Assembly: GCF_021390675.1 (NCBI RefSeq)
Contig: NZ_JAJEJV010000004.1
Coordinates: 744,001 to 808,000 of the forward strand
Reading direction: 5' to 3'
Length of the DNA stretch: 64,000 bases
Source: Dyella sp. 2HG41-7
GTDB lineage: Bacteria > Pseudomonadota > Gammaproteobacteria > Xanthomonadales > Rhodanobacteraceae
Positions 2,498-43,545 of the stretch are shown piece by piece. The notes under the pieces are model-generated. The model worked only from the letters and a program-made list of their open reading frames with translations. It was not told the DNA's origin and searched no databases. The number at the start of each line of letters is the position of its first letter. Within the stretch, counting starts at the first letter, position 1. The position numbers were made by a program, and so were the translations under genes.

Positions 2498-2944
2498 TTA
2501 AGCGTCGAGCTGCTTGCTAAAGAAGATGCGGTAATTGCCCGGCGGATCGCTGGGAATCGATCCCATCTCCACCCAGCCGTTTTTCTTGTAGAACTCAGGC
2601 GCCTGAAACGTATTGGTGTGCAACAAGCCGTGGCGGCAGCCGCGACGTACCGCTTCCTCTTCGGCCATGCGCAACACGCGGCTACCCAAGCCCGTGCCGC
2701 GCAGCGATTCGGCCACGAAAAACACCTCGACAAACAACATCCCGCGCGACGTGCGGCCCGTAAGCCCGCCTAGCACGTCGCCGGTTTCGGGATCTTTCAC
2801 CAGCACGGCGAGCGCGCGTTGATCGTCGATGCGCGTGGCAGCCAGATTGAACTGACTCAACTGCGCGCGAACCGACAGCACATCGGCAGGGTCCGGCGTA
2901 TCGGTAAGAATGACAAGCGGCATGTTCATGACGACAGATTGCAT
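2498..2944 (-). CDS. GNAT-family N-acetyltransferase
   Basis: This protein of about 148 residues has the GNAT fold. The acetyl-CoA pyrophosphate loop is visible as ESLRGTGLGSRVL, and near the C-terminus comes a typical APEFYKKNGW motif. The ATG at 2944 overlaps the nrdB stop by one base (TGATG), so translation is probably coupled to nrdB. Internal ATGs at 2929 and 2923 are alternative starts. The acetylated substrate is unknown. Its place directly behind nrdB suggests only co-transcription, not a proven link to nucleotide metabolism. Confidence 0.82.
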   Translation of the reverse strand: MQSVVMNMPLVILTDTPDPADVLSVRAQLSQFNLAATRIDDQRALAVLVKDPETGDVLGGLTGRTSRGMLFVEVFFVAESLRGTGLGSRVLRMAEEEAVRRGCRHGLLHTNTFQAPEFYKKNGWVEMGSIPSDPPGNYRIFFSKQLDA

Positions 2945-3963
2945 CAGAACGCCATGTCGAACGCCACCTCTCCCTCCACGCCCACCTGATAGGCCGACAC
3001 GCGCCGCTCGAAAAAGTTGGTGACTTCCTGCACGTCCTGCAGGTCCATAAAGTCGAACGGGTTCTTGGCGCCGTACTTCTTCGGCAGATCGAGCTGGGCG
3101 AGGCGTTGATCGGCGCAATATTCCAGGTATTGGCGCATATCCTTCACCGACAAGCCGGCCACGCCGCCGGAAAGCACGTCTTCGGCAAACTGCGTTTCGC
3201 AGGCGATGGCTTCTTCCAGCATGGCTTCGACATCTGCACGCATCGCGTCGTCGAACAAATCCGGATCTTGCGCGCGCACGGTGCGCACCACGGAAAAAGC
3301 GAACGCCATATGACCCGATTCGTCGCGGAACACCCAATTGGTGCCCGACGCCAAGCCATGCAGCAGTCCGCGCGAGCGCAGGAAATACACGTACGCAAAC
3401 GCGGCAAAGAAAAACAGCCCTTCGATGCAGGCCGCGAAACAGATCAGGTTCAGCAGAAACTGACGGCGCTGCTCGCGCGTTTCCAGTCGCCGCAAGTCCT
3501 GGACGGAGTCGATCCACTTAAAGCAGAACGCACCTTTCTGCTTGATCGACGGAATGTTTTCGATCGCGGCAAACGCTTTATTGCGCTCGTTCGGATCGGG
3601 GATGTAAGTGTCCAGCAACGTGAGATAGAACTGCACATGCAGCGCTTCTTCGAACAACTGGCGCGACAAATACATGCGCGCTTCCGGCGCGTTGATGTGC
3701 TGATAAAGGTTCAACACCAGGTTGTTCGCGACGATGGTGTCGCCCGTAGCGAAGAATGCCACTAAACGATGGATCAGGTGACGATCCGCATCCGTCATCT
3801 TCGACTTGAGGTCGGTGACGTCGAGCGAAAAATCCACTTCTTCCACCGTCCAGGTGTTTTTGATCGCGTTGCGATACATCTCGTAGAACTCGGGGTAGCG
3901 CATCGGGCGCAGGGTGAGTTCGAAGCCGGGGTCGAGGATGTGTTGGGGTTGCGAGGCGTTCAA
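2944..3963 (-). CDS. nrdB: Ribonucleoside-diphosphate reductase, class Ia, beta subunit
   Basis: The protein is the radical-generating small subunit that, with NrdA, reduces ribonucleoside diphosphates to deoxyribonucleotides. It has about 339 residues. Di-iron ligands are recognisable: Asp75 (ATGDT), Glu106 and His109 (EEALH), then a later Glu (IEGLFF) and Glu/His (RDESGHM). The radical tyrosine is four residues after the ligand His, at Tyr113. I place the start at TTG 3963 because a GAGGA ribosome-binding site lies 7 bases upstream and the family begins at this point. The reading frame stays open upstream, but that part reads through a dispersed repeat (VVPAKARTQ). A GIY-YIG gene on the other strand separates it from nrdA. 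Confidence 0.93.
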   Translation of the reverse strand: MNASQPQHILDPGFELTLRPMRYPEFYEMYRNAIKNTWTVEEVDFSLDVTDLKSKMTDADRHLIHRLVAFFATGDTIVANNLVLNLYQHINAPEARMYLSRQLFEEALHVQFYLTLLDTYIPDPNERNKAFAAIENIPSIKQKGAFCFKWIDSVQDLRRLETREQRRQFLLNLICFAACIEGLFFFAAFAYVYFLRSRGLLHGLASGTNWVFRDESGHMAFAFSVVRTVRAQDPDLFDDAMRADVEAMLEEAIACETQFAEDVLSGGVAGLSVKDMRQYLEYCADQRLAQLDLPKKYGAKNPFDFMDLQDVQEVTNFFERRVSAYQVGVEGEVAFDMAF

Positions 3964-3990
3964 CGTGATGTCCTCAGGAAATTTTGTAGG

Positions 3991-4029
3991 AAGTCGCTGG
4001 GTCCGGGCTTTCGCCGGGACGACGAGTGT
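3991..4029. repeat. GC-rich palindromic repeat, left flank of the GIY-YIG cassette
   Basis: This 39-bp unit begins AAGTCGCTGGGTCCGGGC and contains the imperfect palindrome CCGGGCTTTCGCCGGG. A near-identical copy in direct orientation lies at 4430-4468, and an inverted related copy lies at 4377-4410. It sits 28 bp upstream of the proposed nrdB start. Confidence 0.85.
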
Positions 4030-4063
4030 GAGGGGTGTTGGAGGATTTGCCGGAAGCAAATGG

Positions 4064-4375
4064 ATGCCGAAAATCGTCATCATGAGATCGCGGCAACCCA
4101 GTGTTTATATACTTGCTAGTAGACGGAACGGTGTTTTGTACGTCGGGGTAACCTCGGATCTGGTTCAACGAGTGTGGCAACATCGTTCTGGCTTTATTTC
4201 GAGCTTCACGAGAGCTCACGCTGCATATTGCCTCGTCTGGTATGAGCTGCACGAAACGATGGAATCAGCGATAAGCCGCGAGAAGTTATTGAAGAAGTGG
4301 CATCGCCAATGGAAGTTAGAACTCGTTGAGCGTTTCAATCCGTACTGGAACGACCTTTATCCAACCTTGCTTTAA
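4064..4375 (+). CDS. GIY-YIG nuclease-like small protein
   Basis: This 103-residue protein consists of one GIY-YIG domain. VYIL and LYVGVTSDL correspond to the GIY and YIG strands. They are followed by QRVWQHRSG with the conserved Arg and His, and by MESAISREKLLKKW with the conserved catalytic Glu. Small stand-alone members of this UvrC-N-like family are common in proteobacteria and their role is not established. The start at 4064 is chosen because GGAAG lies 7 bases upstream; ATG 4082 is an alternative. The gene lies between nrdA and nrdB on the opposite strand, framed by dispersed GC-rich repeats, which suggests it arrived as a small mobile cassette. Confidence 0.85.
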   Translation: MPKIVIMRSRQPSVYILASRRNGVLYVGVTSDLVQRVWQHRSGFISSFTRAHAAYCLVWYELHETMESAISREKLLKKWHRQWKLELVERFNPYWNDLYPTLL

Positions 4376-4376
4376 A

Positions 4377-4468
4377 CCCGTCGCCCCGGCGAAGGCCGGG
4401 GCCTAGTGTCTTTTGCTCGTCTGTAACTGAAGTCGCTGGGCCCCGGCTTTCGCCGGGGCGACGAGACT
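4377..4468. repeat. Pair of inverted GC-rich repeats, right flank of the GIY-YIG cassette
   Basis: One copy (4377-4410, with core CCCCGGCGAAGGCCGGGG) is inverted relative to the next (4430-4468, with core CCCCGGCTTTCGCCGGGG). The second copy is a direct repeat of 3991-4029 and ends at the TAA stop codon of nrdA (4469-4471). The core GGCGAAGGCCGG recurs in the repeat pair at 43390-43506. Confidence 0.85.
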
Positions 4469-6964
4469 TTATTGGCAAGCCTCGCAGTACTCGGGATTTT
4501 CGAGAGAACAGAACACGGCGGCCGTCGCTTCATCCTGCGCGCTGGGCGCAAGCACAGCAGTCGCCGACGCAGTCACCGTCGTCTTCGCTATCTTCGTCGC
4601 CGGACGCGAGCGCAAGTAATACGTCGTTTTGACGCCAGACTTCCACGCGTACATGTACATCGAGCTCAGCTGCCCAATGTTCGGGTTCTCCATAAACAAA
4701 TTCAGCGACTGGCTTTGATCGATATACGCACCGCGTGCGGCGGCCAAGTCGATCAACACTTTCTGCGGCAACTCCCACACGGTGCGATAGATTGAGCGCA
4801 GGCGTTCCGGAATCGCGGCGATGTTCTGGATCGAACCTTCCGCAAGCTTGATCGCGTCGCGGACTTCGGGCGTCCACAATCCCAATGTTTTCAGCTCTTC
4901 CACCAGGTAGCGATTCACTACCAGAAAGTCGCCCGACAAGGTCTCGCGCTTGAACAGGTTGCTGACTTGCGGCTCGATGCATTCGTAGCAGCCGGCAATG
5001 GACGCGATGGTTGCGGTGGGCGCAATGGCGATCAGCAGCGAGTTGCGCAAGCCATTCGTTTTGATCGCGTCGCGCAACGCGTCCCAGCGAGCGGTGTCGT
5101 GCGGCGTTGCGGCTTTCCAGTAGTCGAACTGCAATTCGCCGTGGGCCGCGCGGGTTTCGGCAAAGCCCGGGTGCGCGCCGCTTTGCTCGGCTAAGGCGTT
5201 CGATTGCGCCAACGCGTTGTAGTAGATCTCTTCGGCGATGCGCGTGGAAAGCGCTAGCGCTTCGGCCGAATCGAAAGGTAGGCGCAGCTTGAAGAACACA
5301 TCCTGCAAGCCCATCACACCCAGGCCCACCGGGCGCCATTTGCGATTGGCCGTCGCGGCTGTGTCGATCGGATAGAAGTTCAGATCGATCACACGATCGA
5401 GCTGCCGCACCGCGGTGCGCACGGTGGTGGCGAGTTTGGCGAAATCGAACGCGCCATCCACGACATGGCGGGAGAGGTTGATTGAGCCGAGATTGCAAAC
5501 CGCGGTTTCACCGGCGTTGGTGACTTCCAGAATCTCGGTGCACAGATTCGAGAGATGAATGACGTTCTCAGGCTTTGCCGTCTGATTGCTGGTGGCGTTG
5601 CTGCGATCCTTGAAAGTCATCCAGCCGTTGCCGGTCTGCGCCAGCGTGCGCAACATGCGTGCATACAGTTCGCGTGCCTTGACCGTTTTGACCGCCAAAC
5701 CTTCGGCTTCCGCCTTGTGGTAGGCGCGTTCGAAGGTTTCGCCCCAGGTGTCCACGAAATGCGGCACGACTTTGGGATCGAACAGCGACCAGTTGCCGTC
5801 GTGCTCGACGCGGCGCATGAATTCGTCGGGAATCCAGTTGGCGAGGTTGAGGTTGTGCGTGCGGCGCGCTTCATCGCCGGTGTTATCGCGCAGTTCCAGA
5901 AACTCTTCGATATCCGCGTGCCACGGTTCCAGATACACGCACGCCGCGCCTTTGCGCTTGCCACCTTGATTCACGGCGGCGACGGACGCATCCAGCGTTT
6001 TTAGCCACGGCACCAAACCGTTCGAGTGTCCGTTGGTGCCTTTGATCAGCGAACCGCGCGAGCGCACGCGCGAATATGCCAAGCCGATACCACCGGCGAA
6101 TTTGCTGAGCTTGGCGACGTCGCCGTACTTCTCGTAAATCGATTCCAACGAATCCTGCGGCGAATCGAGCAGGAAGCACGAACTCAACTGTTCGTGCGCC
6201 GTACCGGCGTTGAAAAGCGTCGGCGAGCTGGCGATGTACTCTAGCGAGGAGAACAAACGATACAGCTCCAGCGTCTCGGCGATATCGTTGCCGCCGAGCG
6301 CACAGGCGATACGCATAAAAAAATACGGCGGTGTTTCGATCACCTTGCGCAATTGCGGATGACGCAACAGATAGCGGTCGTAGACCGTACGCAAACCGAA
6401 GTATTCAAAGCGGCGCGTGGCGAGCGGATCGATCGCGTCGTTGAGCTTGCGCGCATTGGCCATCACGAAATCGCGCAAACGCTCATTGGCGATGCCCAGT
6501 TCCGCGCCACGCGCGATGGATTGCGAAAAACTCTGGATTTCCTGGCCGCTCACTTCCTTGTCGATAAAGGCGCTGAGCAGGCGCGCGGCGAGCTGGCCGT
6601 ATTCGGGTTCTTCCGCGGTCAAGGCTGCGGAGGTGCGAATGGAAAGCTGATCGAGCTCTTGCGTGCTGGCGCCGTCGTACAAGCCGCCGATGGTTTTCAG
6701 CGCGACGCGCAACGGATCGACGCCGTGCAAACCTTCCGCGCTGCGCGTGACGGCGCGCACGATCTTGTTGACGTCGACGACTTCGTGTCGGCCGTTGCGC
6801 TTGGTGACGCGCATCTGGCCGGGGTTGTGCGGGGGCGTGAGGGCGAACGGTGTTTCGGCAGTGGCGGACATCGTGAGGTTCGTGTTCGTGGCGTCGGCGG
6901 AAAACGCGGACGTGTCAGCGCGAACGTCGTTACGCTCGCGCGATTCGGTATCGATAGGCTGCAT
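4469..6964 (-). CDS. nrdA: Ribonucleoside-diphosphate reductase, class Ia, alpha subunit
   Basis: This is the catalytic large subunit, about 831 residues. An ATP-cone allosteric domain (MRVTKRNGRHEVVDVNKIV) is followed by the ten-stranded barrel. Active-site features are visible: a first redox Cys in LSSCFLLDS, the NLCTE motif holding the catalytic Asn, Cys and Glu, and AVCNLGSINL with the second redox Cys. The C-terminal tail has the redox pair CEACQ. The start at ATG 6964 has GGAG 9 bases upstream; the frame stays open to 7006 but without better support. The gene lies behind a cobalamin riboswitch and a promoter with NrdR-like and DnaA boxes, and is separated from nrdB by the GIY-YIG cassette. 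Confidence 0.96.
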   Translation of the reverse strand: MQPIDTESRERNDVRADTSAFSADATNTNLTMSATAETPFALTPPHNPGQMRVTKRNGRHEVVDVNKIVRAVTRSAEGLHGVDPLRVALKTIGGLYDGASTQELDQLSIRTSAALTAEEPEYGQLAARLLSAFIDKEVSGQEIQSFSQSIARGAELGIANERLRDFVMANARKLNDAIDPLATRRFEYFGLRTVYDRYLLRHPQLRKVIETPPYFFMRIACALGGNDIAETLELYRLFSSLEYIASSPTLFNAGTAHEQLSSCFLLDSPQDSLESIYEKYGDVAKLSKFAGGIGLAYSRVRSRGSLIKGTNGHSNGLVPWLKTLDASVAAVNQGGKRKGAACVYLEPWHADIEEFLELRDNTGDEARRTHNLNLANWIPDEFMRRVEHDGNWSLFDPKVVPHFVDTWGETFERAYHKAEAEGLAVKTVKARELYARMLRTLAQTGNGWMTFKDRSNATSNQTAKPENVIHLSNLCTEILEVTNAGETAVCNLGSINLSRHVVDGAFDFAKLATTVRTAVRQLDRVIDLNFYPIDTAATANRKWRPVGLGVMGLQDVFFKLRLPFDSAEALALSTRIAEEIYYNALAQSNALAEQSGAHPGFAETRAAHGELQFDYWKAATPHDTARWDALRDAIKTNGLRNSLLIAIAPTATIASIAGCYECIEPQVSNLFKRETLSGDFLVVNRYLVEELKTLGLWTPEVRDAIKLAEGSIQNIAAIPERLRSIYRTVWELPQKVLIDLAAARGAYIDQSQSLNLFMENPNIGQLSSMYMYAWKSGVKTTYYLRSRPATKIAKTTVTASATAVLAPSAQDEATAAVFCSLENPEYCEACQ

Positions 6965-7149
6965 GGTGGGCGCTCCGGCTATGGAGCCTGTCCAGGCCGG
7001 ACGCATCCGGTTGAAGAGGACAGACTCCTAGGTCTCAACCGCCTGCTCCCGCGCGCAGGGCTGATGTGGCGGTTTGCGCGGTCGATCGCCCGACACGGGT
7101 AAGACATCCGCGTCGTGCGACATACCTCCCCGCGGAGGCCGTCACGAGC

Positions 7150-43382: not shown

Positions 43383-43389
43383 CGACAAT

Positions 43390-43506
43390 GTCATTCCGGC
43401 GAAGGCCGGAATCCAGTCAAAAATCCCGTGCGAAGTACACGAAGCGTTCTGTAATGAGTGCTTCGCACAACGTGTTTCACTGGATTCCGGCCTTCGCCGG
43501 AATGAC
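43390..43506. repeat. Inverted pair of GC-rich dispersed repeats
   Basis: Perfect 28-bp inverted copies lie at 43390-43417 (starting GTCATTCCGGCGAAGGCCGG) and 43479-43506. The 61-bp centre contains a shorter inverted GTGCGAAG/CTTCGCAC pair. The core GGCGAAGGCCGG is shared with the repeats around the GIY-YIG gene at 4 kb. It lies between the convergent rluE and tatD and may also serve as a terminator. Confidence 0.88.
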
Positions 43507-43545
43507 GTGAGGCACGATACAAACGCTTGCAATGTCTTGGAAACA

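Follow-up and report, generated by a model that had tools for sequence, protein, structure and literature searches.

REPs with the tag GTAG are, according to the published model, mobilised by RAYTs (PMC2817692). In the sections of that paper on which we draw, three arguments are advanced for these transposases: the flanking REPs are inverted, gene and REP co-evolve, and the presence of the gene correlates with the abundance of REPs. In the part of PMC8266576 cited here, TnpAREP cuts single-stranded REP DNA near the tagged hairpin. REPs with the tag CGTC have been catalogued in five phyla, including dRS3 of Neisseria, with which CGTC-1 of Neisseria was equated (Di Nocera et al., 2013; PMC3733652). 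As far as the cited portions of the latter paper go, CGTC repeats stand without associated transposase genes, no CGTC-flanked transposase was found and a dedicated transposase was apparently missing; it was considered that CGTC families may be heading for extinction. The stems of these REPs open almost invariably with complementary AT (PMC3733652, same portions). Our search of the open-access PMC literature brought up no paper linking GIY-YIG proteins with REPs among the matches listed. Here we present a small GIY-YIG protein which is probably the dedicated mobilising enzyme of CGTC REPs, with REP-gene-REP as the autonomous form and gene-free dimers as MITE-like forms.

The starting point is the window, i.e., the whole stretch of 64,000 nucleotides which was analysed. 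Within it, nrdA, coding for the large chain of ribonucleotide reductase (4469-7006, minus strand; PF02867, PF00317, PF03477), and nrdB, coding for the small chain (2944-3963, minus strand; PF00268; TTG start inferred from sequence), flank a gene on the plus strand at 4082-4375, i.e., antisense to nrdAB. The Pfam domains confirm the identity of both neighbours, between which an initial sequence-only reading had placed the cassette in reverse. That reading had also assigned a GIY-YIG protein of 103 residues. The family assignment holds (PF01541, 58.5 bits), but the length does not: a start at 4082, giving 97 aa, is more likely than one at 4064, because homologues align from this later methionine. 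A scan of the cassette for promoters and terminators found none.

Three palindromes surround the gene and share a common plan, cgtc, an 8-bp stem, a 4-nt loop, the returning stem, and cca or cta. One is located at 3998-4024 on the minus strand (cgtc GTCCCGGC gaaa GCCCGGAC cca, with one stem mismatch). The other two, at 4379-4405 on the plus strand (cgtc GCCCCGGC gaag GCCGGGGC cta) and at 4437-4463 on the minus strand (cgtc GCCCCGGC gaaa GCCGGGGC cca), are the left and right halves of a dimer of 85 bp (4379-4463) with the CGTC ends pointing outward. Repeats at both ends of the cassette and an inverted copy had been noticed before, and they are borne out: a direct repeat of 37 nt (3990-4026 and 4429-4465, 92% identical), an inverted copy (4379-4412 against 4430-4463, 88% complementary) and a second inverted match (4376-4412 against 3991-4027, 78% complementary). 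All of them are the three palindromes plus their tails. The window has 4 matches to the pattern CCGGCNWWNGCCGG, compared with 0.07 expected from shuffles.

The window palindromes fit the published superfamily of CGTC-tagged REPs, as described in the cited portions of PMC3733652. All three carry an unpaired tag of the kind CGTC (or TGTC/CCTC) at one end of the palindrome. Stems of 8-9 bp, loops of 4-5 nt, a 3-nt tail which is mostly CCA, and the formation of dimers are shared as well, with one stem mismatch and one CTA tail as the deviations. Unlike the published stems, those of the window begin with GC or GT rather than AT; the other REP subfamily of this genome, ATTCCGGC, does have AT at the stem foot. 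CTC tags and CGCA tails also occur beside the nuclease. A further difference is the dedicated gene at our loci, whereas the paper, in the portions cited, reports no transposase. Examples are the REP-like dimers next to the nuclease in Sinorhizobium meliloti (L267), G415 (L234) and at L020 and L027, where the tag is CCTC or CTC or the tail is CGCA; we regard these variants as belonging to one and the same system.

A strict pattern, GTCRYYCCNGCGNANGCNGGRRYCC, has 115 matches in the window genome (53 + 62), and its reversed control has 0. Dimers were detected in 18 of 20 stretches of this genome which had been picked for paired cores already shown there; the other two, L244 and L256, have one REP each. 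Among the 18 is the dimer at 43389-43507 of the window (119 bp, no strand assigned). The earlier claim that the repeat core recurs at this place without a nuclease gene is right insofar as the dimer is real and gene-free, but it belongs to the other subfamily: the REPs beside the window nuclease are of the GCCCCGGC type with a short spacer, those at 43389-43507 of the ATTCCGGC type with a long spacer which contains inner hairpins. In the ATTCCGGC dimers (L240-L255 and the one in the window) these inner hairpins change in step on both arms (GTGCGAAGCAC versus GTCCGAAGGAC), which suggests that they are part of a larger structure under selection. The window genome has two nucleases, and each adjoins a dimer of a different REP subfamily.

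What kind of enzyme is this? Five residues, Y9, Y20, R30, E67, and N86, do not vary among 37 sequences, and presumably they have the catalytic roles in the GIY-YIG active site; a nuclease with an active site is therefore expected. The AF2 model of the window protein has a pLDDT of 93.5. The conserved Tyr, Tyr, Arg, Glu, and Asn together with the fold place it in the GIY-YIG superfamily. The nearest solved folds retrieved by Foldseek are UPF0213, Slx1, and the N-terminal domain of UvrC, none at E ≤ 0.001, and a search of PHROGs and NCBIfam with the protein returned no name over the cut-off. With GIY-YIG homing endonucleases and with the single-domain UPF0213 proteins, which we take to be COG2827, it shares the fold, the conserved residues and the stand-alone domain. 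It differs from them in that no intron or host-gene target is seen here, in its hairpin-repeat flanks and in its dispersed copies with MITE-like derivatives. Slx1 processes branched DNA, as the title of structure 6seh says; hairpin-guided cutting by the nuclease is thus plausible.

To look beyond the window, nuclease loci were drawn from 100 relatives, named genomes, a phylum sample, multi-copy genomes, and plasmids. Rows L070-L073, below 60 bits, were left out. Five duplicates were dropped (L004/L001, L120, L144, L155, L190; the counts for individual sets still contain some), which leaves 203 distinct loci of the nuclease subfamily. A CGTC REP lies within 300 bp of the gene in 164 of them. 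REP density is 3.59/kb near the gene (≤300 bp) versus 0.058/kb at 600-1450 bp. The same situation prevails in the individual sets: 52 of 67 loci from relatives (3.42 versus 0.063/kb), 74 of 80 loci from named, multi-phylum genomes, these being the best 80 of at least 579 confirmed candidates (4.06 versus 0.056/kb), and 23 of the best 30 loci from the phylum sample (3.78 versus 0.104/kb). Paralogue and plasmid loci carry a CGTC REP at this distance in 18 of 30 cases, of which one (L230) looks spurious. Among control GIY-YIG loci, i.e., weaker matches from the same search, 1 of 20 has a REP, and its sequence is unlike the others. When 8-bp hairpins were searched for without regard to the tag, GTC stood at exactly one foot in 350 of 408 near the gene versus 18 of 74 far from it. 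Thus, other copies of the gene with flanking repeats, for which the initial reading had advised a search, do exist. Chance as the source of the window repeats and of the pairing is rejected by the excess over shuffles and by the contrasts between near and far densities.

The detector demands GTC and CC/CT and favours C and CCA, which leaves as free observations just the nucleotide preceding the tag and the fourth one of the tail. Across 427 REPs, 88% have C or T and 2% have G immediately ahead of the four-base tag, and in 68% the CCA tail is followed by G. By this strict detector 39 of the 203 loci have no REP; several of the detector-negative loci bear REP-like dimers with a variant tag or tail. 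L067 and L068 (family f7), where no REPs were detected, have divergent nucleases with GSLEVGVSMDL replacing LYVGVT; these may be inactive or repurposed. According to record titles, the REP-bearing loci belong to Pseudomonadota, Planctomycetes, Nitrospira, Nitrospinae, Elusimicrobia, Myxococcota, Dehalococcoidia, and Bipolaricaulota, and many of them come from MAGs. Both loci from Anaerolineae are REP-negative by the detector. Searched with one protein of the subfamily, 50,697 phage records gave no match, and the idea of a phage cargo was rejected; a pattern scan of viral contigs yielded 51 confirmed loci.

Where REPs are borne on both sides (112 distinct loci), the nearest pair is oriented +gene- in 70, -gene+ in 22, ++ in 12, and -- in 8 cases. 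The commonest arrangement is a REP dimer with the gene in its spacer. An alternative is dimer-gene-dimer, e.g., in Azospirillum. The boundaries of 99 elements were inspected for target duplications, which the initial reading had proposed to look for: there is no direct repeat of ≥5 bp at offsets 0-3, and shorter ones are within the range of shuffles.

Different lines of comparison connect the type of REP with the type of nuclease. On a nuclease tree of 156 rows, from which proteins with stops and loci without REPs were excluded, the REP stem type is clustered, with 46 changes compared with a shuffled mean of 81.5. The genome-level tests ignore phylogeny, with the exception of one in which the closest nuclease from another genus was taken: it shares the REP stem type in 32 of the 42 loci for which genus code and core stem type are both available. 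Shuffles of stem type within genera gave a mean of 18.4 and a maximum of 29; 0 of 1000 reached 32. Judged from these comparisons, the REP stem type tracks the nuclease rather than the host.

Usually, genomes which bear the nuclease also hold more REPs, where presence is defined by a best E ≤ 1e-15 and REPs are counted with a single strict pattern, by which some loop types go undetected. In the 100 relatives the median is 31 strict REPs in the 48 genomes with nuclease (6 of these have none) versus 0 in the 52 without. In the phylum sample of 398 genomes, 31 of 102 with nuclease have at least 10 strict REPs versus 12 of 296 without; the pattern covers only some REP types, and 71 of the 102 remain below 10. 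Exceptions exist. Of the 43 phylum-sample genomes with at least 10 strict REPs 12 lack a strong nuclease match, G135 even with 157 REPs, and in the genus of the window three genomes without a strong match still hold 105, 14, and 28 REPs. In the REP-rich genomes G135, G260, G420, and nine others without a strong match the gene may have been lost, may be unassembled, or a different enzyme may be at work.

Signs of mobility are seen in the relative G014. Three nuclease copies (L041, L044, L045) are 85-92% alike over about 490-585 bp, and within 5-kb loci no other likeness was found at E 1e-8. The homology takes in the REPs and sequence beyond them. In a fourth copy, L072, the middle of the nuclease gene is deleted. 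When L044 was used as a query across the genus, its left and right parts were found side by side, gene-free, at many places in G014. We read 20 of these; some retain just part of the left arm. The inner dimer has a spacer of 18 nt in 16 copies and of 54 nt in 3, and it is absent in 1. In the 54-nt spacers the nuclease gene survives with its beginning and the bases upstream of it (34 nt at 91%). In L405 the final 16 nt of the gene follow directly and without mismatch; in L398 and L413 the gene end that follows is similar but, as judged by eye, has mismatches. Because of these gene remnants one can conclude that the three copies derive from gene-bearing ones. The series as a whole corresponds to what is expected of an autonomous element accompanied by internal-deletion (MITE) derivatives. 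In L045 both REPs bear the same 26-nt insert in mirror image, i.e., the two element ends change together; they appear to have been copied from each other.

Occupied and unoccupied sites were compared at several places. Seven relatives have the gene on the left of L044 in common with G014, and the likeness ends immediately ahead of the element. No REP follows within 320 bp in six of them; in the seventh there is a dimer of a different type. The right flank is not syntenic, and no exact empty site was read there. Three aligned records of Sphingobium plasmids contain the element, one of them with a frameshifted gene; at the same place two records have a single palindrome and two have nothing. In Azospirillum lipoferum 4B a dimer-gene-dimer block is positioned between sufB and sufC, where the four aligned relatives have neither gene nor REP. 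At the aligned Sphingobium and Azospirillum sites the intergenic flanks are too diverged, and no base-exact pair of filled and empty sites was found. In four Sphingobium plasmids, compared over 50-kb stretches, most REPs are shared and old; one site was lost together with its flank. A single genome can have up to 9 nuclease matches.

How old is the copy between nrdA and nrdB? Counting the window genome, the nuclease occupies this gap in 16 of 41 genomes and in 10 of 16 members of the genus. In other genera it is present in 6 of 25, all six with CGTC REPs; the remaining 19 gaps have neither nuclease nor detected REP. Of 32 genomes searched, 27 have an nrdB match; 25 of these were counted after one locus without adjacent nrdA and the two G042 fragments had been left out. 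Among the 6 gene-free members of the genus several keep, by eye, a single or degenerate REP, and G013 has none. A single origin of the nrdA-nrdB site is not rejected (AU p 0.554). Seven same-site orthologues gave dN/dS values of 0.07-0.16, with one pair at 0.26, in the 16 of 21 pairs which were computable, many with dS >1; for the recent copies in G014 dN/dS is 0.21-0.49. By its distribution, the nrdA-nrdB copy is an old resident and not a recent insertion, which as a candidate was rejected on the occupancy within and beyond the genus and on the AU test. RAYT genes, too, are said to reside vertically for long times under selection. The initial impression of an insertion into a previously tight operon consequently finds no support if a recent event is meant. 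Relatives which lack the gene at this site, and for which it had led one to look, do exist, in the genus as well as outside, and the case which would have spoken against a mobile cassette, a site filled in all relatives and other copies devoid of repeats, did not occur.

How might such a system operate? The autonomous mobile unit would be CGTC-hairpin-CCA ... gene ... TGG-hairpin-GACG, and gene-free REP dimers would be its non-autonomous, MITE-like derivatives. The enzyme would recognise the REP hairpin, as a single strand or a cruciform, during replication and would cut at the hairpin foot beside the CGTC tag, by analogy with TnpAREP. Host repair or replication would copy the hairpin-bounded segment elsewhere. 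The chemistry of GIY-YIG enzymes is hydrolytic; joining would therefore depend on functions of the host, in contrast to the covalent mechanism of Y1 enzymes. To our knowledge, no covalent intermediate is expected of a GIY-YIG enzyme. The cutting chemistry of the nuclease on REPs is thereby transferred by analogy. At the level of sequence the model is supported by the pairing, the outward CGTC ends, the shared REP type, the dispersed copies, purifying selection, the internal-deletion derivatives in one genome, and no detectable target duplication. With noticeably less assurance than for the role of the enzyme, we lean toward considering this a new class of mobile elements, in which a 97-residue GIY-YIG nuclease as the sole protein spreads CGTC hairpins across several phyla, with nicks guided by structure and copying mediated by the host, without any known family of transposases, retrotransposases or recombinases.

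The GIY-YIG/REP pair would then work like a RAYT system without being a member. RAYT systems reportedly generate no target duplication either, and its lack in our 99 elements sets them apart from DDE transposons and insertion sequences. As in the REP/RAYT systems described in the cited sections of PMC2817692 (REPtrons, REPINs; TnpAREP, IS200/IS605 family), the gene is located between inverted REPs, which is the commonest form here; gene-REP co-evolution and the abundance correlation are present as tendencies with exceptions. Likewise, a short tag is found at the hairpin foot and dimers serve as non-autonomous forms. The differences are the enzyme, a 97-aa GIY-YIG nuclease rather than a Y1/HUH transposase, and the tag, CGTC instead of GTAG; in addition, there are the 39 nuclease loci without a detected REP. 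Since the three arguments put forward for RAYTs are matched here, as tendencies with exceptions, we take the nuclease as the mobilising partner of CGTC REPs. The proposal of a small mobile system distinct from RAYT-linked REPs, made from the window alone, is thus supported by other loci through pairing, co-specificity, abundance, and the G014 copies, and by the lack of a Y1 match in the genome.

The strongest rival is a free-standing homing endonuclease whose gene invades existing REP dimers by cutting and repair copying, with the REPs spreading by other means. It would readily account for the gene in the dimer spacer (+gene- in 70 of 112) and would agree with the 12 of 43 REP-rich genomes that lack a strong nuclease match; single palindromes at the same site in some gene-free relatives are compatible with it, yet are no proof. 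It accounts neither for the gene remnants in three gene-free G014 copies nor for the fact that nuclease presence predicts REP abundance. Further, the homology of the G014 copies spans the REPs and beyond, no REP was detected in the 19 nrdAB gaps of other genera that lack the gene, and in the window genome (G000) no Y1 transposase was found to spread REPs. We consider homing improbable, albeit worth keeping in mind. About half that credit is due to a host-domesticated, structure-specific nuclease for which REPs are regulatory binding sites or hairpins at mRNA ends and not the ends of an element. Purifying selection, the long residence between nrdA and nrdB, and the closest folds, UPF0213, Slx1, and UvrC-N, are in line with domestication, but its patchy presence with up to 9 matches in one genome, the dispersed and deleted copies, and the CGTC ends of the REPs, which in different hosts mostly point outward, argue against it.

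Finally, a RAYT or another Y1 transposase might spread the REPs of this genome with the nuclease as a bystander, as in the published model for GTAG REPs (PMC2817692, cited sections). We give this next to no credence. The Y1_Tnp transposase (PF01797) has 0 matches in the window genome while the control search was positive in 5 of 14 genomes, and because of this RAYT-driven spread is contradicted for the window genome and was rejected. The REP type tracks the nuclease, and the cited portions of PMC3733652 report no CGTC-flanked transposase.

With the GIY-YIG protein as mobiliser, the CGTC REPs, thought since 2013 to be without a dedicated transposase (PMC3733652, cited portions), would have a partner gene, and their spread becomes directly testable. 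If this is true, REP/enzyme partnerships arose with two unrelated enzymes and GIY-YIG nucleases join the likely DNA mobilisers. Annotators would learn that a small 'GIY-YIG nuclease family protein' is in many cases probably the product of a mobile-element gene.

Some individual loci deserve mention. L066 (G085) and L042 (G092) have tandem or array-like repeats in which the nuclease comes in several copies, partly broken, within ~1 kb. In a record of Neisseria gonorrhoeae (L171) the nuclease gene lies within an array of CGTC repeats of the ATTCCCGC type, which are dRS3-like. In the nrdA-nrdB gaps of G014, G005, and G003 (L097, L105, and L107, respectively) a second small ORF, with a YRNRSGxSGV-like start, is positioned between the CGTC REP and nrdB.
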